Source: Rikenellaceae bacterium (GTDB taxonomy: Bacteria; Bacteroidota; Bacteroidia; Bacteroidales; Rikenellaceae). Taken from it: DNA of 64,000 nt. Position numbers and translations under genes: made by a program. Positions 2,681 to 30,822 of the stretch are shown here, piece after piece (position 1 is the first letter of the stretch; every line of letters begins with the position of its first letter). Below the pieces are notes generated by a model. The model made no database searches. It saw only the letters and a program-made list of their open reading frames with translations, and was not told the DNA's origin. Where the stretch lies: the NCBI GenBank assembly GCA_902363575.1, contig CABJAJ010000001.1, positions 558,001-622,000 on the forward strand. Reading direction: 5' to 3'.

Positions 2681-3544
2681 ATGAAAAAGATACGATACAG
2701 TACGATCTGGAGCGCGGCGGCCCTGCTGCTGCTCTGCTCCTGCGTGAAAGACGACCTGGTAAACACGCCCCATCCGGACAAGGGTGCTGTGGTTGTCTCG
2801 GCGGATTTCTCGCAACACTCCGAAGGGATTGCATTGCCCGCGGATTACATGCTTGCGCTCGGCGGCGAAACGGTGGCGGCTCCGGTTGCGGGGATCTTCT
2901 GCCATCCCGTGCTTTTCGATCCCGGAACCTATCCGCTCACCGCCTTTACAAGCAGCGACAAGATGACCGTCACCGGTGAAACCGTTGCGATCAACACGGT
3001 TCCGGGCGGAACGCTGGAGCCCCTGCCGGGGTATCTCTTCACCGCGCGGCAGGAGATCGAGGTGATCCGGGACGACACGGTGAGCGTCGTGCTGCCGATG
3101 ATGCAGCGCGTGCGCGACCTCCATTTCGCGTTTACCGTTACCGAGGGCGACTGCGCACGGATCGGGAGCGTTGCCGGCACGCTCGCGGGTGTTGCGGGGA
3201 CATTCGACCTTGCGACACAGCGGCCCACGGGCAGCGATGCGACGCATGCCGCAGCCAATGCCACGTCGCCGCTCTTTACCCGCGCGGGCGATCGAATTAC
3301 GGCTTCGGCGCGTCTGCTGGGCGTCGCGGGCGACACGCAAACCCTGACTCTCGTACTGACCTTTACCGACGGTGCGTCGCAGACCGTCACGAAAGACCTG
3401 ACGGAGCTGCTTGCGGGTTTCAACGACGACATGCTGACCCCGCTCACGCTCAAAGCCAACCTCAACACCCCCGTCGGAGCGGGATTCTCGGCCACGGTCA
3501 CCGATTGGGAAGCGGTCGCAAACGAGGATGTGGATCTGCATTGA
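2681..3544 (+). CDS. FimB/Mfa2 (DUF5119-like) fimbrial anchor lipoprotein
   Basis: 287 residues with a lipoprotein signal peptide ending LLLCSC (lipidated Cys about 21), followed by V-K-D-D-L, the start typical of FimB/Mfa2 and DUF5119 proteins of Bacteroidales. The remainder is Thr/Ala-rich beta sandwich ending in a TDWE-type strand. Family members sit at the base of type V fimbriae or regulate their length. It lies between the DUF3575 protein and a Mfa-like fimbrillin. DUF5119 and FimB/Mfa2 are hard to separate by eye, so the exact family is less certain than the lipoprotein and fimbrial assignment. Confidence 0.7.
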   Translation: MKKIRYSTIWSAAALLLLCSCVKDDLVNTPHPDKGAVVVSADFSQHSEGIALPADYMLALGGETVAAPVAGIFCHPVLFDPGTYPLTAFTSSDKMTVTGETVAINTVPGGTLEPLPGYLFTARQEIEVIRDDTVSVVLPMMQRVRDLHFAFTVTEGDCARIGSVAGTLAGVAGTFDLATQRPTGSDATHAAANATSPLFTRAGDRITASARLLGVAGDTQTLTLVLTFTDGASQTVTKDLTELLAGFNDDMLTPLTLKANLNTPVGAGFSATVTDWEAVANEDVDLH

Positions 3545-3585: not shown

Positions 3586-4497
3586 ATGAAAAACAACTCC
3601 ATTTATCTGATTTTGGCCGTTGCGGCCATGAGCTTCGCCTCCTGCGACAAAAACGAACAGACGAACGGCGGCGCCGCACAGGACGATCGCGTGGCCGTGC
3701 AGTTCACGGCCGGTACGCTCGACGTGCAGCCCGCGGCCGCGACGCGATCCGAAACTCCCTGGTCTCGCCCGGGCAATATCGGTGTTTACATGGTCGAAGA
3801 AGCCTCGCTCGGTGTCGTGGATGCAGCCGCCAACCGCAACTACCTGTGGGTGGCATCTCAACGGACATTCTCTCCCCTGAGCGCCGATCAGACGGTTTAC
3901 TATCCGGTGAACGGTTCCCCGGTTCGTTTCGCGGCCTACTATCCTTACCAGGCCCTGACGGACAATTGCTATAAAGTGGATCTTACCGCCCAACCGTCGC
4001 TCAACGATCAGGCTGCGTTTGAGCTGCTGTGGACGGGTGTTACGACGGCTTACGACAAGACCCAACCTTCGGTGGCGCTCAACTTCGACCACCAATATGC
4101 CAAAATCAGCCTCTCCGTAAAAAACGGCAAGGGCATTACCAAGGAGGAGCTGAAGCAGATCGTCGTCACGATGACCGAAATGCAACTCACGGCCGATTTC
4201 AACGTGCTGACCGGCGAAATAACCCCGACGGGCGATGTCGGTGAGCTGACTTTCAACCGATGGGCCTCGGACGGCTCGGGGCAGACGGCTCTCGTGCTGC
4301 CGACTCAGGCTGATGCCCAGCGCGTGGTAAACTTCACGCTCGGCAGCGACACTTTCGTCTGGAACATCGGGGAAAAAGAGTTCGACGCAGGCAGTGAATA
4401 CAGCTACACCGTTACGGTCAATCGCACGCCGCTGGGTATCGCGGCCTCGATTACCGACTGGGAAACGGGCGAGGGCGGCTCGGGGGACGCCGAATAA
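3586..4497 (+). CDS. Mfa-like fimbrillin family lipoprotein
   Basis: 303 residues. Signal peptide with lipobox SFASC (Cys 20), a linker, then a fimbrillin-type double beta sandwich with hallmarks of the Mfa_like_1/FimA-like family: an ATRSE segment near residue 50, YYPVNGSPVRFAAYYP, and a C-terminal AASITDWE strand. Type V fimbrial subunits are exported as lipoproteins, cleaved after an arginine in the N-terminal strand and assembled by strand exchange. Here it is probably a stalk or adaptor subunit, placed just upstream of the two DGR target proteins. Confidence 0.75.
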   Translation: MKNNSIYLILAVAAMSFASCDKNEQTNGGAAQDDRVAVQFTAGTLDVQPAAATRSETPWSRPGNIGVYMVEEASLGVVDAAANRNYLWVASQRTFSPLSADQTVYYPVNGSPVRFAAYYPYQALTDNCYKVDLTAQPSLNDQAAFELLWTGVTTAYDKTQPSVALNFDHQYAKISLSVKNGKGITKEELKQIVVTMTEMQLTADFNVLTGEITPTGDVGELTFNRWASDGSGQTALVLPTQADAQRVVNFTLGSDTFVWNIGEKEFDAGSEYSYTVTVNRTPLGIAASITDWETGEGGSGDAE

Positions 4498-4525: not shown

Positions 4526-6271
4526 ATGAAAACTTCCGGATTATTTTTAACGTTAGCAGCAGCTTCGGTGCTGACCGCCTGCCTGAAAGAGGAGGACGGC
4601 ATCCTTGCGGAGCGGCAGGAGCTGCGTCTCAGGAGCGGCATCGAAGCCGTGACGCGCGGCGAGGTGCAATCCACGGCGATCGTCGCAGGCGAAACGGTCT
4701 ATGCGTGGGTGACGGACGCCCTGACCGGCGAAGCGCTCTACAATGCCTGCACGCTGACCGCACAGGCGGGAGGCGCTCTCGCGGGCACGACACCGATGTA
4801 CTTCCCTGCGACGGGCAACGGTGTGCGGGTTGCGGCCCTGCACGGACTGCTGACCGAAAGCCCCGCGGTTGCGGCGATGCCCGGTTCGTTCGCCTTTACG
4901 GTCTCCCCCGACCAGAGCGAAGCGGGCGGCGCAAACTATGTGCACTCCGATTTGCTCTATGCCGCACAAACCGTCCAGCGCACGAAAGAGGCCGTAGAAC
5001 TCGAATGTTACCATCTGCTCTCGAAAATGGAGCTGAAGATCACCCGGAGCGACGGAGTGACCGATGCGATCACCGCCGTGACGCTCGACGGCGTGGTATT
5101 GGGCGGTATGTTTACCCCTGCGGCCGATGCCGACCTTGCGCAGCGGAGCGTACGCGCCGCGATGATCGTTGCCGACGGACAGAGGGGAACGATGACGCTC
5201 GGCGCGATGCCTGCGGGCGACAATCCGGACAATCCGATCACCAACGATGCGATCGTCGTGCCGCAGGATGTTGGCGGCAAGACCCTGACTTTCACTCTTT
5301 CCGGCGGCAGCGAGCTGTCCTATACGATCCCTGCGGGCAGGTCATTCGAGAGCGGTAAAAAACATGTGTACGAAGTGACGCTCAAGCGCACGGGGCTGGA
5401 AGTGACCTCCGAAAGCGGGGATTGGAACGACGGCGGCAGCGAAGAGGTGCAGAGTCGGGAGGTGCTCGCCTCTTATACGGCCGACGACCTCAAACCCGGC
5501 GATTATTTCTACTCCGACGGCACGACTTCCGATGGCGGCCTGCGCAAGCTTTATGCCGACGGAACGCTGGAGATGGCGGTCGGGAAACCCGTGCCCGAAA
5601 CGGACGGGGGTAAAACGGTCGTCGGCATCGTCTTTCAGACCGATCCCGACCGGATCGGACAGGCCGAGAAAGATGCGTTGGCGGTTCAGGGCGCCACCGC
5701 GCCGCGCGGGCTCGTGATGGCCGTAAAGAACGCCGCAACGAACATGGAATGGGGGCCTTACGGAACGGATGAGGGGCTGACGAAATGCGAAACGAAAGCG
5801 CAGAATTACAGCGACATCAGCGGTTATGGCAACTGCGAGCGGATCAGGGCTTCGCACGGCGATCTGAGTAACTATCCCGCTTTCAGGGCGGCCGACGATT
5901 ACAACACGGTCTGCGCGGTTGCCGGGGTGACGACGGGTTGGTACCTGCCCGCCAGCGGACAGTGGTGGGATCTGCTGCAAAATCTGGGCGGCTGTGCGAT
6001 GTTGGCGGATCCGGAGCAGCAGACCTCGTCGGACAGCGGTGATTTTTACTGGTCGGGACAAGGTGACATTCCCGCCGCGCTGAACAGATGGATGGAGGCG
6101 ATCGCCGCTGATAGTAAAGACCCGTTCGCCGACTACAACTGGTTTTGGTCGTCCTCGGAGTACTCCGGCGGCGACGCCCGGGGCTGGGGCGTGTACTCCG
6201 TTGGCGACGTGGGCTGCGTCTGGTACAGTAAGGGCATCGGCAACGACGTGCGACCTGTTCTAGCTTTTTAG
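4526..6271 (+). CDS. DGR variable protein 1: fimbrillin-like lipoprotein with C-type-lectin-fold tail
   Basis: 581 residues. Lipobox LTAC with Cys 19. Residues about 30-300 resemble a Mfa-like fimbrillin domain (ends SGDWNDGGSEEV). Residues about 310-581 form a domain with YFYSDGT, GIVFQTDPDRIG, NAATNMEWGPYGTD, GWYLPASGQWWDLL and WFWSSSEYSGG, as in the FGE/C-type-lectin fold of DGR target proteins. The last 43 residues (539-581) are variable repeat VR1, which ends two nt before the end of the TAG stop. Twelve of the 14 template Asn codons are altered here. It is paralogous to the next gene through its C-terminal half. Position after stalk-like genes suggests a tip adhesin with a rewritable binding surface; the ligand is unknown. 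Confidence 0.88.
   Translation: MKTSGLFLTLAAASVLTACLKEEDGILAERQELRLRSGIEAVTRGEVQSTAIVAGETVYAWVTDALTGEALYNACTLTAQAGGALAGTTPMYFPATGNGVRVAALHGLLTESPAVAAMPGSFAFTVSPDQSEAGGANYVHSDLLYAAQTVQRTKEAVELECYHLLSKMELKITRSDGVTDAITAVTLDGVVLGGMFTPAADADLAQRSVRAAMIVADGQRGTMTLGAMPAGDNPDNPITNDAIVVPQDVGGKTLTFTLSGGSELSYTIPAGRSFESGKKHVYEVTLKRTGLEVTSESGDWNDGGSEEVQSREVLASYTADDLKPGDYFYSDGTTSDGGLRKLYADGTLEMAVGKPVPETDGGKTVVGIVFQTDPDRIGQAEKDALAVQGATAPRGLVMAVKNAATNMEWGPYGTDEGLTKCETKAQNYSDISGYGNCERIRASHGDLSNYPAFRAADDYNTVCAVAGVTTGWYLPASGQWWDLLQNLGGCAMLADPEQQTSSDSGDFYWSGQGDIPAALNRWMEAIAADSKDPFADYNWFWSSSEYSGGDARGWGVYSVGDVGCVWYSKGIGNDVRPVLAF
6141..6269 (+). repeat. DGR variable repeat 1 (VR1)
   Basis: 129 bp aligned without gaps to the template at 8806-8934. 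It differs at 21 positions, every one an adenine in the template (16 A to G, 5 A to T). All 93 non-A template positions are identical. The last 25 bases are invariant and act as the presumed initiation (IMH) end. It encodes the C-terminus of variable protein 1. Confidence 0.97.
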
Positions 6272-6330
6272 ATGATCTATTTATCTATTTAATCTATTTA
6301 TCTATTGGATGATACCCGCGCAGCGGGTCG
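6272..6330 (+). repeat. Post-VR1 element: short direct repeats plus hairpin
   Basis: Directly after the VR1 stop there are two copies of ATCTATTTATCTATT, then the hairpin ACCCGC-GCA-GCGGGT at 6314-6328. The same arrangement follows VR2 (8062-8121) but not the template. In the Bordetella phage DGR a hairpin/cruciform just downstream of the VR is needed for efficient retargeting; this element is a good candidate for that role, though it lies farther (about 45 nt) from the VR. Confidence 0.75.
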
Positions 6331-6351
6331 AAATTATTAAACCGAACCGAA

Positions 6352-8061
6352 ATGAAACGATCGACCCATTCGATAGCGGCCCTTGCGGCCCGGACGGCGG
6401 TGATGGCCCTGACGGCCTTCGGCGCCCTGTCGCTGGCCGGATGCTCGCAGGAGGAGCAGGCTGTGCCTGTCGGGCAGGGGCAGCGGCTTTCCATCTCGAT
6501 CTGCGACGACGGTTATGCCCCGGCGGATGACGTCCGGCCCGCCTTGTCGGGAGGCTGCGGAAGCCTTGCCGCCGACCCTGCCGGAAGCCTCGCGACCCGC
6601 GCGACGGAGAACGGTTATGCGACCGGATTTACTCCCGGCGATGCCTGCGGCCTTTCCATCGTGCGTGACGGCGAGGTGGTCGCAGCCAATGTGCGGCTGA
6701 CGGCTTCGGCCGGAGCCGGCGGCACGAACGAACTCGTTTGGACACCCGACCCGGCCGCGGGTGAGCTGTGGTACGCCTCTGGCGACCGTTATTTCCTCTA
6801 TTACCCGTGGCAGGCTGCGCCGCAGGGTGTCCCGACCGTGGGGGACTCGTTCGCCCCGTCCGTCCCCGGCGATGCCGGAGCGGAGTTTTTCGCCGCGCTG
6901 ATCGCCGCATGGACACCCGCCGCAAACCAGAGCGACTATCCCGCGGGCTACACGGCTTCCGATCTGATGACGGCCGAAGCTTCGGTGGGGAGTGCCTCCG
7001 GCGGGGTCGTGCCACTCACGTTCTCGATGACCCATCGCATGGCGCTCGCCGTGGTGGAGTTTCCTCGGACGGTTTACAAGTTCGACAACGGCGATACGAT
7101 GATTCCCGATTATGCCGTTGCCGCATCGGGCATCGCATTTTCGGGTGCAGCCCAACCTCTCGCGACGGATGGCAGCACCTATCGCTACCTCGTCAATCCC
7201 GCCCTGGCAGCGGCTCCGATTCTTGCGGGCGGCTACGGCGGCAACCGCGAATTCACCATCGCTCCCACGGGCCTTGAGGCAGGCAGTTACAAGGTCTATA
7301 AGGTGGATGGCGGTAGGGTGGAGAAAAACCATACGTTGCAGGTCGGCGATTACTTTCTGGCGGACGGAAACCTGCTGTCGAAAGACGCTGCGGCGGAGAT
7401 GGTCGCACAGGCCGAGGTCGCAGGCATCGTCTTCCAGACCGCTCCGTCGCGGATCGGGGAGGGGGAAAAGAACGCATTGGGCGGAGAGGCGCACGGCCTT
7501 GTGTTGGCCGCGAAGAACGCCGCAACGAATGTGCAGTGGGGCCCTTACGGAACGGATATCCCAGATCTGCCGAACATTACGACGGTCGCAGCCTGTTACG
7601 GGGACATCGACGGTTATTCCAACACCCATACGGTGTGGGCGTTTGACGGTTACACGGCCAATCCCGCCGATTATCCCGCTTTCCGTGCCGTTGCCGATTT
7701 CAACACGACACATGCCGCTCCGGGCAATACGACAGGATGGTTCATGCCGTCGGCAGGTCAGCTCTGGGACGTGCTGGAGCATCTCGGCGGCGTGAAGGCG
7801 TTGGCCGATCAACGCACGAACGGCGATCAGGAGTGGTATGGCACCGATCCGGGAAACGATATTTGCGCCAGCCTCAACCGATGGCTTGCCCATGTAACGG
7901 ACGCGGCGAAATTCGGCGACAGCTACAACTGGTTTTGGTCGTCCTCGGGGAACTCCGGCAACGACGCCCGGTACTGGGGCGTGTACTCCGGTGGCAGCGT
8001 GAGCTGCTACTGGGACAGTAAGGACATCAACCTCGACGTGCGACCTGTTCTAGCTTTTTAG
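6352..8061 (+). CDS. DGR variable protein 2: lipoprotein with C-type-lectin-fold tail
   Basis: 569 residues. Long signal sequence with lipobox SLAGC (Cys 31). Residues about 45-310 resemble a fimbrillin-like beta domain. Residues about 330-569 share the fold and motifs of variable protein 1: YFLADGN, GIVFQTAPSRIGEGEKNAL, NAATNVQWGPYGTD, TGWFMPSAGQLWDVL, NWFWSSSGNSG. VR2 covers residues about 527-569. The two targets diverge more at the N-terminus than at the C-terminus, which suggests duplication followed by specialisation. The gene lies 80 bp after target 1 and 140 bp before avd. It is probably displayed on the surface alone or as an alternative tip subunit. Confidence 0.88.
   Translation: MKRSTHSIAALAARTAVMALTAFGALSLAGCSQEEQAVPVGQGQRLSISICDDGYAPADDVRPALSGGCGSLAADPAGSLATRATENGYATGFTPGDACGLSIVRDGEVVAANVRLTASAGAGGTNELVWTPDPAAGELWYASGDRYFLYYPWQAAPQGVPTVGDSFAPSVPGDAGAEFFAALIAAWTPAANQSDYPAGYTASDLMTAEASVGSASGGVVPLTFSMTHRMALAVVEFPRTVYKFDNGDTMIPDYAVAASGIAFSGAAQPLATDGSTYRYLVNPALAAAPILAGGYGGNREFTIAPTGLEAGSYKVYKVDGGRVEKNHTLQVGDYFLADGNLLSKDAAAEMVAQAEVAGIVFQTAPSRIGEGEKNALGGEAHGLVLAAKNAATNVQWGPYGTDIPDLPNITTVAACYGDIDGYSNTHTVWAFDGYTANPADYPAFRAVADFNTTHAAPGNTTGWFMPSAGQLWDVLEHLGGVKALADQRTNGDQEWYGTDPGNDICASLNRWLAHVTDAAKFGDSYNWFWSSSGNSGNDARYWGVYSGGSVSCYWDSKDINLDVRPVLAF
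7931..8059 (+). repeat. DGR variable repeat 2 (VR2)
   Basis: 129 bp aligned without gaps to the template at 8806-8934, with 15 substitutions, all at template adenines (10 A to G, 4 A to T, 1 A to C). Eleven of the mutated positions are also mutated in VR1, seven to the same base. The 3' 25 bases are identical to both template and VR1. Confidence 0.97.
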
Positions 8062-8121
8062 ATGAGCTATTTATCTATTCAATCTATTTATCTATTGCAG
8101 GGAACCCGCGTAAGCGGGTCG
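8062..8121 (+). repeat. Post-VR2 element: short direct repeats plus hairpin
   Basis: Near copy of the element after VR1. The 15-nt repeat ATCTATTTATCTATT recurs (the first copy begins with G instead of A), followed by ACCCGC-GTAA-GCGGGT at 8104-8119. The stem is conserved while the loop differs (GTAA against GCA), which points to selection on the structure. Confidence 0.75.
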
Positions 8122-8201
8122 ATTTGGAAACGAGGCGGGAGCAGAGGAGGTTTGCGGCCGGGGCTCTGCGCGCAGAAAAAACGATTGATAGTTTCTGAAA
8201 G

Positions 8202-8666
8202 ATGGCTTTGACCGAGCAACTGCCGATTTATCGGTGCGCCTTGCGCCTCACGGCGCAGGTCGCACCGCTGATCCGCAATTTCTCGAAGCACTACAAATAC
8301 TCGCTCGGGGGCCGGCTGCTGGACTTGTGCCTCGATATGCCGGAGCTGATCTTCGACGCCAATTCGCATTACGACAAAGTGCCCTATCTGGAAGAACTGC
8401 TGCGCAGGCTCCAGCGGCTGCGGATGCTCTTCAATGTCTGTCTGGACCAGCGGGAGTTGTCGGAGCGGCAATATGCGCCCGTAGCGATGACCCTGGACGA
8501 GATCGGCAGACAGGCGACGGCGTGGCGGGACAAATTCGGCAGGGAAAGCCGGCAGCGGGCCGAGCAGCGGGCGGCCTATGTGGAGAGCCGTATCGAGCAG
8601 ATCGTTCGTGAAATGGTCGCCGAGAGGCTGGACGGACTTGGGGGAACGGACAGAGACAAGCAATAA
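8202..8666 (+). CDS. avd: Avd-like DGR accessory protein
   Basis: 154 residues, all-helical. It carries the family signature LPIYRCAL, RNFSKHYKYSLGGRLLDLCL, ANSHYDKVPYLEELLRRLQRLR and QYAPVAMTLDEIGRQATAW, which fits the Avd four-helix-bundle family. Avd forms a basic pentameric barrel that binds the reverse transcriptase and template RNA and is essential for mutagenic retrohoming. The protein is about 25 residues longer than Bordetella phage Avd owing to an extra charged C-terminal helix. It sits between the second target and the template repeat, the usual order. Confidence 0.93.
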   Translation: MALTEQLPIYRCALRLTAQVAPLIRNFSKHYKYSLGGRLLDLCLDMPELIFDANSHYDKVPYLEELLRRLQRLRMLFNVCLDQRELSERQYAPVAMTLDEIGRQATAWRDKFGRESRQRAEQRAAYVESRIEQIVREMVAERLDGLGGTDRDKQ

Positions 8667-8805
8667 GGCAACGGATTCGGTCGGCGGGAGTCCGCACGGC
8701 AAGGACTGTGCGGAGAGAGCCGGTTAATTAAAAAAGGGCTGCCGACAGGCTGCCGTCGTGTACGGCAGCTCGTAAAGAGTAAAAAACGGGCAGCAGGCAT
8801 GTGTG
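8667..8805 (+). other. avd-to-template spacer with stable hairpin
   Basis: Contains a perfect 8-bp stem, GCTGCCGT (8749-8756) with ACGGCAGC (8762-8769), loop CGTGT, about 35 nt before the template. No T run follows, so it is not a typical terminator. In characterised DGRs the RNA flanking the template is structured and needed for priming; this could be the 5' part of that RNA. Confidence 0.5.
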
Positions 8806-8934
8806 GGTTTTGGTCGTCCTCGGAGAACTCCGGCAACAACGCCCGGAACTGGAACGTGAACTCCGATGGCAACGTGAACTGCAACTGGAACAATAAGAAC
8901 ATCAACAACGACGTGCGACCTGTTCTAGCTTTTT
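8806..8934 (+). repeat. DGR template repeat (TR)
   Basis: 129-bp non-coding template whose copy matches VR1 and VR2 at every non-adenine base. Read in the VR frame it contains 14 AAY (Asn) codons, the usual design in which A mutagenesis at codon positions 1 and 2 reaches many amino acids without making stop codons. It ends 25 nt before the reverse transcriptase start and lacks the hairpin element that follows both VRs. The TR has six T before AA where the VRs have five T before the stop, marking the boundary. Confidence 0.97.
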
Positions 8935-8959
8935 TAAGATACCTACTACGACAGAACGA

Positions 8960-10255
8960 ATGGGCAGAATCGAAAGCGTCCGTGGAGCGGAGTTGTTCGC
9001 TCCCGAAGAAACGGGAGGCGTCTCGCTCGAAGACGTCTTTACCGCCTACATGGACTGCCGCCGCAAAAAACGCGGCACGTACAACGCCCTTGCCTTTGAA
9101 GTCGATTGGGAGCGCAGGTGTGCCGATCTGCTCGGGCGCATCAATGCGGGCGAATACCGGCCCCTGCGCTCCCTCGTCTTCATCATCCGCAAACCCGTCA
9201 TGCGGGAGGTGTTCGCTCCGGCGTTCGAGAGCCGCGTGGTCGATCATCTGATCGCCCGCAAGATCGAACCGCTGCTGGAAGAGCGGTTCATCGACGACAG
9301 TTACAGCACGCGCAAGGGCAAAGGCACGCTCTTCGGCATCGAGCGGATGGAACGGCATATCCGGGCCTGTTCGCACGATTATACCCGCGATTGCTACGTG
9401 ATGAAGCTCGACATCCGGTCGTTTTTCATGGATCTGCCCAAACGGGAGTTGTACGACCGCATGGCGGCGTTCCTGCGCGAGCGTTACGACGCACCCGACC
9501 TGCCGACGCTGCTCTGTCTGCTGCGGGCGACCTATTCGGATTGTCCGCAGCAGCATTGCGTGCGGCGGAGTCCGCTTGCGGCATGGGACAAACTGCCGCC
9601 CCGCAAGAGTCTCTTTAACGGCGATGCAGAGCACGGATTGGCCATCGGGCGTCTCACGTCGCAGTTGGGAGCTTTGTTCTATCTCGATCCGCTCGATCAT
9701 CTGGTCACCGAAGCATGGGGCGTACCCCATTACGGCCGTTACGTGGACGACATGGTATTCGTGCATGAAAGCCGCGAACACCTGATCGGCGTGGCAGAGA
9801 AGGTTCGCACATGGCTGCGGGAGAACGGATTACAGTTGCATCCGAAGAAATTCTACCTGCAACATTACACCCGAGGCGTGGCTTTCATCGGCGGCGTGCT
9901 GAAACCGGGCAGGCGTTATCTGTCCAATCGCACGGTGAGTTTCTGTTGCAACGTGCTGCACTATTACAACCAGGCGGCTGCGGAGGATGCCCGTTTCGTG
10001 TATGGCCATGCCGAGGAGTTCGTGGCATCGATCAACTCCTATCTGGGCTTGATGCGGCATTTCGCATCGTATCGCCTGCGGCAGCGGATCGTCGCCCGTA
10101 TCGACAAGCGGTGGTGGAAGGTCGTCCATGCGGCAGCCGGGCTGGAAAAACTCGTCGTGAAGAAACCTTACAAAAAGCTGACACGGAAACGACGCGAAAT
10201 CCGGCGGGCAGTCGCCGCATACCGGAAATCCTATGCAACCGACACTGCAATATGA
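8960..10255 (+). CDS. DGR reverse transcriptase
   Basis: 431 residues. Group-II-intron-like RT fold: KLDIRSFF with the first catalytic Asp at 151, the DGR-type motif 4 IGRLTSQ at 229-235 (SQ rather than the SP seen in most bacterial RTs), and the catalytic YVDD at 261-264, followed by LHPKKFYLQ and GVAFIGGVLKP thumb motifs. It has no maturase or endonuclease domain. With Avd it copies the template RNA to cDNA with adenine-specific errors that replace the VRs. All catalytic residues are intact. Its TGA stop overlaps the ATG of the next gene. Confidence 0.97.
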   Translation: MGRIESVRGAELFAPEETGGVSLEDVFTAYMDCRRKKRGTYNALAFEVDWERRCADLLGRINAGEYRPLRSLVFIIRKPVMREVFAPAFESRVVDHLIARKIEPLLEERFIDDSYSTRKGKGTLFGIERMERHIRACSHDYTRDCYVMKLDIRSFFMDLPKRELYDRMAAFLRERYDAPDLPTLLCLLRATYSDCPQQHCVRRSPLAAWDKLPPRKSLFNGDAEHGLAIGRLTSQLGALFYLDPLDHLVTEAWGVPHYGRYVDDMVFVHESREHLIGVAEKVRTWLRENGLQLHPKKFYLQHYTRGVAFIGGVLKPGRRYLSNRTVSFCCNVLHYYNQAAAEDARFVYGHAEEFVASINSYLGLMRHFASYRLRQRIVARIDKRWWKVVHAAAGLEKLVVKKPYKKLTRKRREIRRAVAAYRKSYATDTAI

Positions 10256-10737
10256 CCGAGCAGGAGTTGATCGACAGGCAGCGTGCCCGCAACGACGGGA
10301 CGTTTTATCTGATGAAAGTAGGCATGTTCTACCATGCCTACGATGCCGGAGCCTATGCTCTTGCCCGCACGATGGGCTACCGGGTGAAATGCAAACCCCG
10401 GAAGGGTGGGGACGGTGTGCTGGTGTCGGGATTCCCGATCGCTTCGCTGGAAAAGGTGGCGGCACGGATGGCGGAGCAGGGTATCCGATTGACCTGTGCG
10501 GCGGATGACGACCGGCTTTATGCGTTTTCGGGTGCGGACGCGACGCCCGACCAAACGTTGGTGGATCATCCGCCGGCCGGCATTCCCCGTTCGCGCAATG
10601 TCCGCCGTCCGGGTGGGGACGGATTGACGGCAAAGCTGGACGCGATGATCCTTTCGTTCGATCTCGCGGGTTCGACCCCGATGGATGCGATGAATTTCGT
10701 CGCCGAATTACAACGGATGGTGCTGAAAGGGGAGTGA
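10252..10737 (+). CDS. DGR-associated MutS domain-I-like protein
   Basis: 161 residues starting at an ATG that overlaps the RT stop (ATGA), which indicates translational coupling; an in-frame ORF extends upstream but is only a shadow of the RT gene. Residues about 15-80 (GTFYLMKVGMFYHAYDAGA, then VLVSGFPIASLEKVAARMAEQG) align by eye with the mismatch-binding domain I of MutS (Phe-Tyr-Glu region and G-x-P block). There is no ATPase, connector or clamp domain. MutS-like small proteins have been reported as DGR accessories. A role in mismatch tolerance or cDNA handling is an inference. Confidence 0.75.
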   Translation: MTEQELIDRQRARNDGTFYLMKVGMFYHAYDAGAYALARTMGYRVKCKPRKGGDGVLVSGFPIASLEKVAARMAEQGIRLTCAADDDRLYAFSGADATPDQTLVDHPPAGIPRSRNVRRPGGDGLTAKLDAMILSFDLAGSTPMDAMNFVAELQRMVLKGE

Positions 10738-29103: not shown

Positions 29104-30822
29104 TCAACTGAAGAAGTAGAGCTGGCTCAGCGGGAACTCCCTGGCGGGTTTCACGTAGGCCCTCACTCCGTTCACCAGCACGTCGAACGTCTCGGGATTG
29201 ACGTCGATGCGGGGCATGCCGCCGTTGCGCACCATATCGTATTTGGTGAGCTGGCGGGTGCGGCGTACCGGCAGGACATGGCGCTCCAGGCGCAGCCGCT
29301 CCTTGATGCCGCTCTGCCATGCCGCGTTCGAGACGAACGAGATGCCCGTGCGGGGCAGCTCCCTGCCGAAAGCGCCGAACATCGGACGGTAATAGCAGGG
29401 CTGCGGCGTGGGGAGCGAAGCGTTGGGATCGCCCATGTTGGCCCAGTTAATCAGACCGTTCTTGATGACCAGCTTGGGCTTGGTGCCGAAGAACTGCGGC
29501 TCCCACAGCACCAGGTCGGCGATTTTGCCCTTGGCGATCGAGCCGAGGTAGTCCGAGACGCCGAACGTGATGGCCGGGTTGATGGTGATTTTGGCCAGGT
29601 AGCGCAGCACGCGGAAGTTGTCGTTTCCGTCGGCATCCTCCTGCAGCTTGCCGACGGCGCCTTTCATGAAAGAGGCCATCTGGAACGAGCGCAGGAACGA
29701 TTCGCCGATGCGACCCATGGCCTGCGAGTCCGACGAGACCATCGACAGGACGCCCAGGTCGTGCAGCACGTTTTCGGCGGCCTGCGTCTCGGGACGCACG
29801 CGGCTCTCGGCGAATGCCACATCGGAGGGGATCTTCGGGTTGAGGTTGTGGCAGACCATAATCATGTCGAACAGCTCGGCCTGGGAGTTGATGCCGAACG
29901 GCAGGGTCGGGTTGGTCGAGGAGGGGAGCACATAGGGCATCGACGCCACTTTCAGCAGGTCGGGCGCATGGCCGCCGCCGGCCCCCTCGGTGTGGTAGGT
30001 GTGGATCGTGCGGCCGTCCATCGCGGCGATCGAGTCCTCGACGTAACCGCCTTCGTTGAGCGTGTCGGTATGGATCGCCACCTGCACGTCGTAACGGTCG
30101 GCCACGCCCAGCGCGGTGCGGATGGCCGCGGGGGTCGAGCCCCAGTCCTCGTGAATCTTCAGACCGCAGGCACCGGCCTCGATCTGCTCCTCGAGCGGCT
30201 CGTTCATCGAGCAGTTGCCCTTGCCCAGCAGACCGACGTTTACGGGGAGCCCTTCGAGTGCCTGGAGAATCTGTTCGATGTTCCAGCGGCCCGAGGTGAT
30301 GGTGGTGCCGTTGCTGCCGTCGGTCGGACCCACGCCGCCGCCGAACAGGGTGGTGATGCCGTTGCTCAGGCAGGCGTAAGCCTGCTGCGGGGAGATCATG
30401 TGCACGTGGCCGTCGATGCCGGCGGCGGTGAGGATCAGATGCTCGCCCGAGATGGCGTCGGTCGCCGCGCTGGTCACCAGATCGGGGTGCACGCCGTGCA
30501 TGATGTTGGGGTTGCCCGATTTGCCGATGCCGGCGATCTTGCCGTCCTTGACACCCACGTCGGCCTTCACGACCCCCAGCAGGGGGTCGATGACCGTCAC
30601 GTTGGTGATTACCAGATCGAGCGAGCCCTCTTTCGAGGTCATCGTGTTGGCCAGCCCCATGCCGTCGCGCAGGGTCTTGCCGCCGCCGTAAACCACTTCG
30701 TCGCCGTACTCGCGCAGGTCTTTCTCGATCTCTACATAGAGATCGGTGTTGCCCAGACGGATTTTGTCGCCCACGGTAGGGCCGAACAGGTTGTTGTATT
30801 CCTGACGTGATATCGTAGCCAT
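29104..30822 (-). CDS. ureC: Urease alpha subunit UreC
   Basis: 572 residues, the usual length. All active-site residues are present at a constant +5 offset from Klebsiella urease: His139 and His141, carbamylated Lys222 in GLKIHEDWG, His224, His251, His277, flap Cys324-His325 (MVCHNLN) and Asp365 in SSDSQAMG. Catalyses urea hydrolysis to ammonia and carbamate. Starts 6 nt after ureB. The residue after the flap His is Asn rather than the common second His, which is not catalytic. Confidence 0.97.

Follow-up and report, generated by a model that had tools for sequence, protein, structure and literature searches.

A stretch of 64,000 nucleotides from a Rikenellaceae bacterium (assembly GCA_902363575.1, contig CABJAJ010000001.1, positions 558,001 to 622,000 of the forward strand; hereafter the window) carries a diversity-generating retroelement (DGR) of the Bacteroidales type, which, with a probability of about 0.92, diversifies the C-termini of two paralogous tip adhesins of a type V pilus, VP1 and VP2. 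A single template repeat (TR) is matched by one variable repeat (VR) in each target gene, and genes for a reverse transcriptase (RT) and for Avd stand beside the repeats. In window positions, the core of the element reads as follows.

6141 to 6269, + strand: variable repeat VR1, 21 mismatches to TR, each at a template A
7931 to 8059, + strand: variable repeat VR2, 15 mismatches to TR, each at a template A
8202 to 8666, + strand: Avd, accessory variability determinant (Pfam bAvd PF22296, 45.8 bits, cut-off 40)
8806 to 8934, + strand: template repeat TR, from ungapped comparison with VR1 and VR2
8960 to 10255, + strand: DGR-type reverse transcriptase (RVT_1 E 1.1e-17; IGRLTSQ and YVDD)

Among the 129 aligned columns of the ungapped TR/VR1/VR2 comparison the template has 36 A, and all 36 mismatches pooled from VR1 and VR2 fall at template A. 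VR1 departs from the template by 16 A>G and 5 A>T changes and VR2 by 10 A>G, 4 A>T and 1 A>C, giving a pooled spectrum of 26 A>G, 9 A>T and 1 A>C; the chance of every mismatch landing on the 36 A is 7.6e-15 for VR1 and 3.7e-10 for VR2. All 93 non-A columns are the same in the three repeats, the 18 columns at which VR1 and VR2 differ are without exception template A, and the likeness between TR and the VRs ends abruptly on both sides. A scan of the 64,000 bases on both strands with template A masked found zero non-A mismatches for TR, VR1 and VR2 only, and no third VR in the window, where the next best site has mismatches at 47 of the 93 non-A positions. The RT frame (431 residues) and the Avd frame (154 residues) are both open, and RVT_1 and bAvd score above their Pfam cut-offs, while Avd reaches 65 bits against the NCBIfam Avd model, under its equivalog cut-off of 80. 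With IGRLTSQ at residue 229, which we take to be the exact form of the DGR RT motif, and YVDD at 261, the enzyme is of the DGR type. An SQ motif of DGR RTs is named in a passage of PMC3521204. The original prediction, made from the letters of the window, had counted 21 and 15 mismatches, all at template A, with the other 93 positions identical, and our recount is exact to the base; its view of one adenine-mutagenic DGR with two targets, flanked by an intact DGR-type RT and Avd, is likewise upheld.

Judged by their sequences, VP1 and VP2 are diverged tandem paralogues, and that arrangement would suit a different origin of the VR likeness, namely recent duplication of VP1 into VP2 or gene conversion between them, with no homing from TR. 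However, the protein bodies are only some 38 to 43% identical (38% over the alignment, 43% over 263 residues outside the VR), yet the non-A VR positions agree 93 out of 93 and the differences fall on template A 18 times out of 18, so that this explanation is already contradicted and we regard it as scarcely credible. Identity outside template A despite diverged bodies is expected if both VRs were rewritten from one template. Furthermore, 11 template A are changed in both VRs, 7 of them to the same new base where the spectrum alone predicts about 6.4, and there is thus no sign of copying from one VR to the other.

Natural alleles of the two targets were compared as proteins, each target being represented by a single sequence that extends through the VR. 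The closest public VP2 among the matches listed, P0001 (from a 90% cluster of 1266 member sequences), shows 16 differences from the VP2 of the window over 569 residues, and 14 of these fall in the last 42; the VR thus differs at 14 of 42 residues and the remainder at 2 of 527. The closest VP1 among the matches listed, P0137 (cluster of 1268 members), differs at 13 of 42 VR residues against 4 of 539 elsewhere, one of the four being a gap, and the sole other near-identical VP1 among these matches, P0138, ends before the VR (486 residues) and is uninformative on it. Because representatives alone were read, the 1266 and 1268 cluster members are no evidence of VR variety. All 27 allelic VR differences occur at template codons that contain A and none at the 21 codons that do not, and in all four VRs every residue can be reached from TR through A changes alone. 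A template lysine codon, AAG, from which mutation could produce a stop, is unchanged in all four VRs; the lysine it encodes, K557, is nearly invariant across a 62-sequence alignment, and selection is the likely cause of this constancy. The original prediction would have fallen with mismatches outside template A in close relatives, or with VRs that do not vary between isolates sharing the locus: none of the 27 VR residue differences (one allele pair per target) lies outside A-containing codons, and the VRs differ strongly in proteins whose bodies hardly differ. Its description of the element as active-looking gains support from this natural VR diversity, with retrohoming itself probable by analogy with known DGRs.

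The DGR closes a type V pilus operon, in which VP1 and VP2 are followed by Avd, TR, RT and a MutS-like accessory (MSL). The operon genes as far as the two targets are these.

1452 to 2669, + strand: DUF3575 outer-membrane protein, head of the pilus operon (Pfam PF12099, E 1.6e-36)
2681 to 3544, + strand: Mfa2-type pilus anchor (Pfam PF08842, E 1.9e-8)
3586 to 4497, + strand: fimbrillin, probable stalk pilin (Pfam PF13149, E 1.1e-41)
4526 to 6271, + strand: VP1, tip-pilin-like lipoprotein, DGR target 1 (Pfam PF13149, E 2.4e-31; C-terminal VR)
6352 to 8061, + strand: VP2, tip-pilin-like lipoprotein, DGR target 2 (Pfam PF13149, E 3.1e-7; model resembles 4EPS)

A fimbrillin fold with an extra C-terminal domain (modelled for VP2), a lipoprotein signal and adjoining anchor and stalk genes identify VP1 and VP2 as proteins of the tip-pilin type, and LTAC and LAGC in these tip-pilin-like proteins are presumably their lipoboxes by the lipobox rule. 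Each VR forms the C-terminus of its protein. By analogy with known DGRs both proteins would be located at the pilus tip, where the variable domain would bind ligand. The predicted model of VP2 matches 4EPS across residues 41-569 and places VR2 in a C-type-lectin-like domain; the C-lec domain of 4EPS is spoken of in a passage of PMC10743442. The VP2 structure-match list has no entry for a classical DGR variable protein (Mtd, TvpA), which excludes nothing. VP1-like and VP2-like proteins recur on equal-sized contigs among the homologue matches listed, which suggests that the members of such pairs share a contig. In a comparison of 14 pairs including that of the window, some of them not same-contig candidates and some made up of two VP1-like proteins, the non-A VR residues agree at 23 of 23 in the window pair and at 8 to 22 of 23 in the other 13, although the low figures understate the likeness because small length differences shift some tails out of register. 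The pilus operon, the MutS-like accessory and a hairpin after each VR are features beyond the original prediction.

The hairpins belong to a target element that follows each VR.

6270 to 6332, + strand: VR1 target element, AT-rich repeats, then hairpin 6314-6328 (ACCCGC-GCA-GCGGGT) and CGA
8060 to 8122, + strand: VR2 target element, AT-rich repeats, then hairpin 8104-8119 (ACCCGC-GTAA-GCGGGT) and CGA

After the stop codon both genes have in common a noncoding stretch of two TATTTATCTATT repeats, then the hairpin, then CGA. The hairpin starts 44 nt 3' of each VR and has a 6-bp stem, with the loop GCA after VR1 and GTAA after VR2; no corresponding hairpin follows TR in the window. Within the window the exact AT repeats are confined to these two elements, and a loose hairpin pattern occurs at three sites, only the two post-VR ones being followed by TCGA. 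G-N-A and G-N-N-A mini-hairpins of DNA are unusually stable through a sheared G-A pair.

Comparison was extended to 93 loci that have an RT match, one of them that of the window; 68 have a TR/VR pair of at least 50 nt, and many of the others are truncated by contig ends. In the 80 nt around and after the VR end, 35 of 75 TR/VR rows (at least 75 nt) have a hairpin with a stem of at least 6 and a loop of 3-6, whereas random stretches have one in 125 of 3750 cases; after TR such a hairpin occurs in 1 of 75 rows. With a stem of at least 4, the loop C-[G N(1-2) A]-G was found in 23 of 65 distinct VR flanks, 71 of 6500 controls and 1 of 65 TR flanks, whereas other loops of 3-4 nt showed far weaker enrichment (41 of 65 VR flanks vs 46% of controls). 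In 1.22 Mb, both strands, there are 128 hairpins with a stem of at least 5 and a G-N(1-2)-A loop, and 28 of these lie at most 90 nt after a VR where 0.4 would be expected by area; many phage loci are closely related, and the 28 are not independent events. Ten of the 28 are triloops, in 4 the second loop base is a pyrimidine, and 14 fit a GRNA consensus while 14 lie outside it. An exact search of viral contigs for the composite spacer-hairpin pattern returned 0 matches, and in a DNA alignment of nine elements the window hairpins are out of register with the others. Away from any detected VR, locus L100 has a perfect 22-bp hairpin with a GGA loop from about position 3927.

In the Bordetella phage BPP-1, according to passages of PMC3240598, a hairpin after the VR is required for homing, and loop substitution or enlargement by just 2 nt brings activity near background. 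Given this precedent the presence of a hairpin is expected, and the additions here are the loop rule and the AT-rich spacer. As in the BPP-1 type, the window hairpins are GC-rich, lie downstream of the VR and are absent from TR, and by this analogy they may mark the homing target. A competing account, which concerns this detail only, is that the post-VR hairpins are transcription terminators or other expression signals with no role in homing. They do stand after stop codons, some relatives (L089 and L095 among them) have a T-run behind the CGA, and a G-N(1-2)-A hairpin (stem of at least 4, 80 nt) is absent from 42 of the 65 VR flanks, so that the hairpin is not universal. However, no T-run directly follows the window hairpins, terminators need no C-G-closed G-N(1-2)-A loop, such hairpins are enriched after VRs (28 against an expected 0.4) and missing after TR in 64 of 65 cases, and BPP-1 requires a hairpin in this place for homing. 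We therefore consider the terminator account unlikely.

On the reading of a DGR with two pilus targets, the RT, together with Avd, would reverse-transcribe the RNA of the single TR and miscopy template A, chiefly to G, and the cDNA would home to VR1 or VR2, each independently. The homing sites would be marked by the common VR 3' end, the AT-rich spacer and the small G-N(1-2)-A hairpin, which TR lacks. The outcome would be a population with pilus tips variable at up to 19 residues each on a fixed scaffold.

The remaining component of the locus is encoded directly after the RT.

10252 to 10737, + strand: MSL accessory, MutS domain I alone (Pfam MutS_I; fold match to MutS; start overlaps the RT stop)

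MSL has 161 residues, a size that leaves no room for ATPase and clamp domains. Its MutS_I match (PF01624) is above the Pfam cut-off, 12 of 17 aligned family members match MutS_I at E 0.01, and for its predicted model (pLDDT 84.9) MutS structures rank first (E 6.2e-4, TM-score by query 0.40). When the MSL profile was compared with PDB sequences, kelch-like chains came above MutS (E 0.26), and the MutS assignment is based on the Pfam and fold results, not on that search. The F-x-E site is F-Y-E in the MutS of Bacteroides timonensis and F-Y-H, F-F-H or F-M-H in the MSL family, with Phe retained and His in place of Glu in 16 of 17 members, the other (P0123) lacking this part; P0132 and P0134 were misaligned in the MutS comparison, and the site was read from the family alignment instead. 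MSL matches occur in 20 of the 93 loci, many of which are truncated, every match starting at most about 1.7 kb from the RT start, and in 7 of 393 Bacteroidales genomes at 1e-6, 5 of the 7 beside an RT match. Of the two other genomes, G108 has no match to the window RT in 15 kb (L127), and G293 has only chance-level RT matches in 17 kb (L128, best E 0.39), with an RT match some 18 kb off on the same contig. The link between MSL and DGRs is thus strong, but a family exclusive to DGRs goes beyond the evidence. As a MutS domain I protein whose gene adjoins that of a DGR RT, the window protein belongs among the MSL accessories; a passage of PMC10053308 names MSL, under PF01624, among the known accessories of DGRs. 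According to passages of PMC12875486, an E. coli repair reporter with an 18-nt insertion was unaffected when mutS was lost, such an insertion not being a MutS substrate, and elsewhere the authors removed mutS to help keep substitutions. As a tentative proposal, more doubtful than not, a composite mark on many Bacteroidales DGR targets (an AT-rich TATTTATCTATT-type spacer plus a G-N(1-2)-A mini-hairpin, wider than GRNA) may let one template serve several genes, while MSL, a mismatch-reading MutS domain with no ATPase and with Glu changed to His, may hold or hide A-derived mismatches between cDNA and target from mismatch repair.

Several points weigh against a DGR acting on two pilus tips. The retrohoming steps are deduced from known DGRs; the allele comparison covers proteins and one representative per target; the whole-length VP2/4EPS match has a high rmsd, from a domain hinge or model error; most VR flanks lack the G-N(1-2)-A hairpin; and in loop, stem length and spacing the window hairpins lie outside the published consensus for phage DGRs (in a passage of PMC3240598, a 4-nt GRNA loop, a stem of 7-10 bp and 4-34 bp from the VR). 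In addition, the A>G share of 26/36 exceeds the 636/1261 in the pooled TR/VR rows of other loci (p 0.011, in a test that takes no account of codon selection or kinship among loci). This strong bias, as one unusual feature, would also fit a fossil DGR, whose VRs were written formerly and whose alleles now spread solely by recombination between strains. Yet the RT, Avd and MSL frames are open, zero non-A mismatches have accumulated in VR1 or VR2, and a near-identical allele of each target bears a very different VR, which makes a fossil very improbable.

The window has a GC content of 62% and its relatives are Bacteroidales-type. Three tRNA genes (Asn, Val, Val) at 464-860, about 600 bases upstream of the pilus operon, may mark an integration neighbourhood. 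An invertible promoter ahead of the operon is unsupported, the longest inverted pair being 18 nt and 72% complementary (5 longest of 17, positions 860-1500). Structured RNA near TR received weak signals, with z of -2.3 for the avd-TR spacer (8667-8805), -1.7 for 8935-9090 and -1.25 for the whole. Farther off, a urease alpha subunit gene lies at 29104-30822 on the minus strand, and an Rfam 5_ureB_sRNA match at 30371-30672, on the opposite strand over that gene, is probably coding similarity.

DGR-diversified type V tip pilins of gut Bacteroidales were reported by Macadangdang et al. 2024, as cited in a passage of PMC12632263, and the target type there, a tip pilin with a C-terminal binding domain, is that of the window; passages of PMC4159848 had already reported, in 2014, one DGR target similar to 4EPS and another that is a lipoprotein containing an Mfa2 domain. 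Bacteroides timonensis (L001, NZ_CBVI010000159.1) has DUF3575, Mfa2 anchor, fimbrillins, tip pilin, Avd, RT and MSL arranged in the order of the window, with TR likewise ahead of the RT, an RT 55% identical to that of the window, and after its VR a similar hairpin, CCCGC-GAA-GCGGG followed by TCGA. It differs in a single detected VR, which has one non-A mismatch, where the window has two VRs, and in a stretch of about 3.4 kb, unassigned, between fimbrillins and tip pilin. The BPP-1 DGR (passages of PMC3240598) likewise comprises RT, Avd, TR and VR, and its VR too is followed by a GC-rich hairpin, but this one lies only 4 bp away, with an 8-bp stem and a GAAA loop, against 44 nt, 6 bp and GCA or GTAA here.

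Multiple VRs occur in about 1/7 of DGRs in the DiGReF survey (PMC3521204) and in 271 of 948 in Yan et al. (PMC6642488), 216 of the 271 with one TR, in the passages concerned. In our locus set, L107, L108 and L119 have one TR with more than one VR; L119, from Bacteroides reticulotermitis, has three (3677-3759, 6874-6956 and 7507-7589 in RT-oriented coordinates), and its RT match is in two pieces, so the frame may be split. The two-target DGRs described in parts of PMC3521204, PMC6642488 and PMC10743442 use one TR for two genes, as does the window; the tentaclin phages of PMC10743442 have targets of differing topology, one with its VR near the 5' end of the gene, whereas here both VRs sit at the C-terminus, in pilins that are paralogues. 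A G-N(1-2)-A loop rule or a Bacteroidales AT-rich spacer was not met in the open-licence literature surveyed, which is weak evidence of absence. From one template, variation would here be maintained at shared scaffold positions of two diverged pilus-tip adhesins, in an unusually clean two-target DGR; a GCA triloop beside a GTAA tetraloop, with near-identical spacers, makes target choice, relative rates and loop rules testable within one locus, which is also an entry point to what the MutS-like accessory does. The literature already describes DGRs with two targets, tip pilins diversified by DGRs and the MutS-like accessory, and to these the window adds a clean new example.
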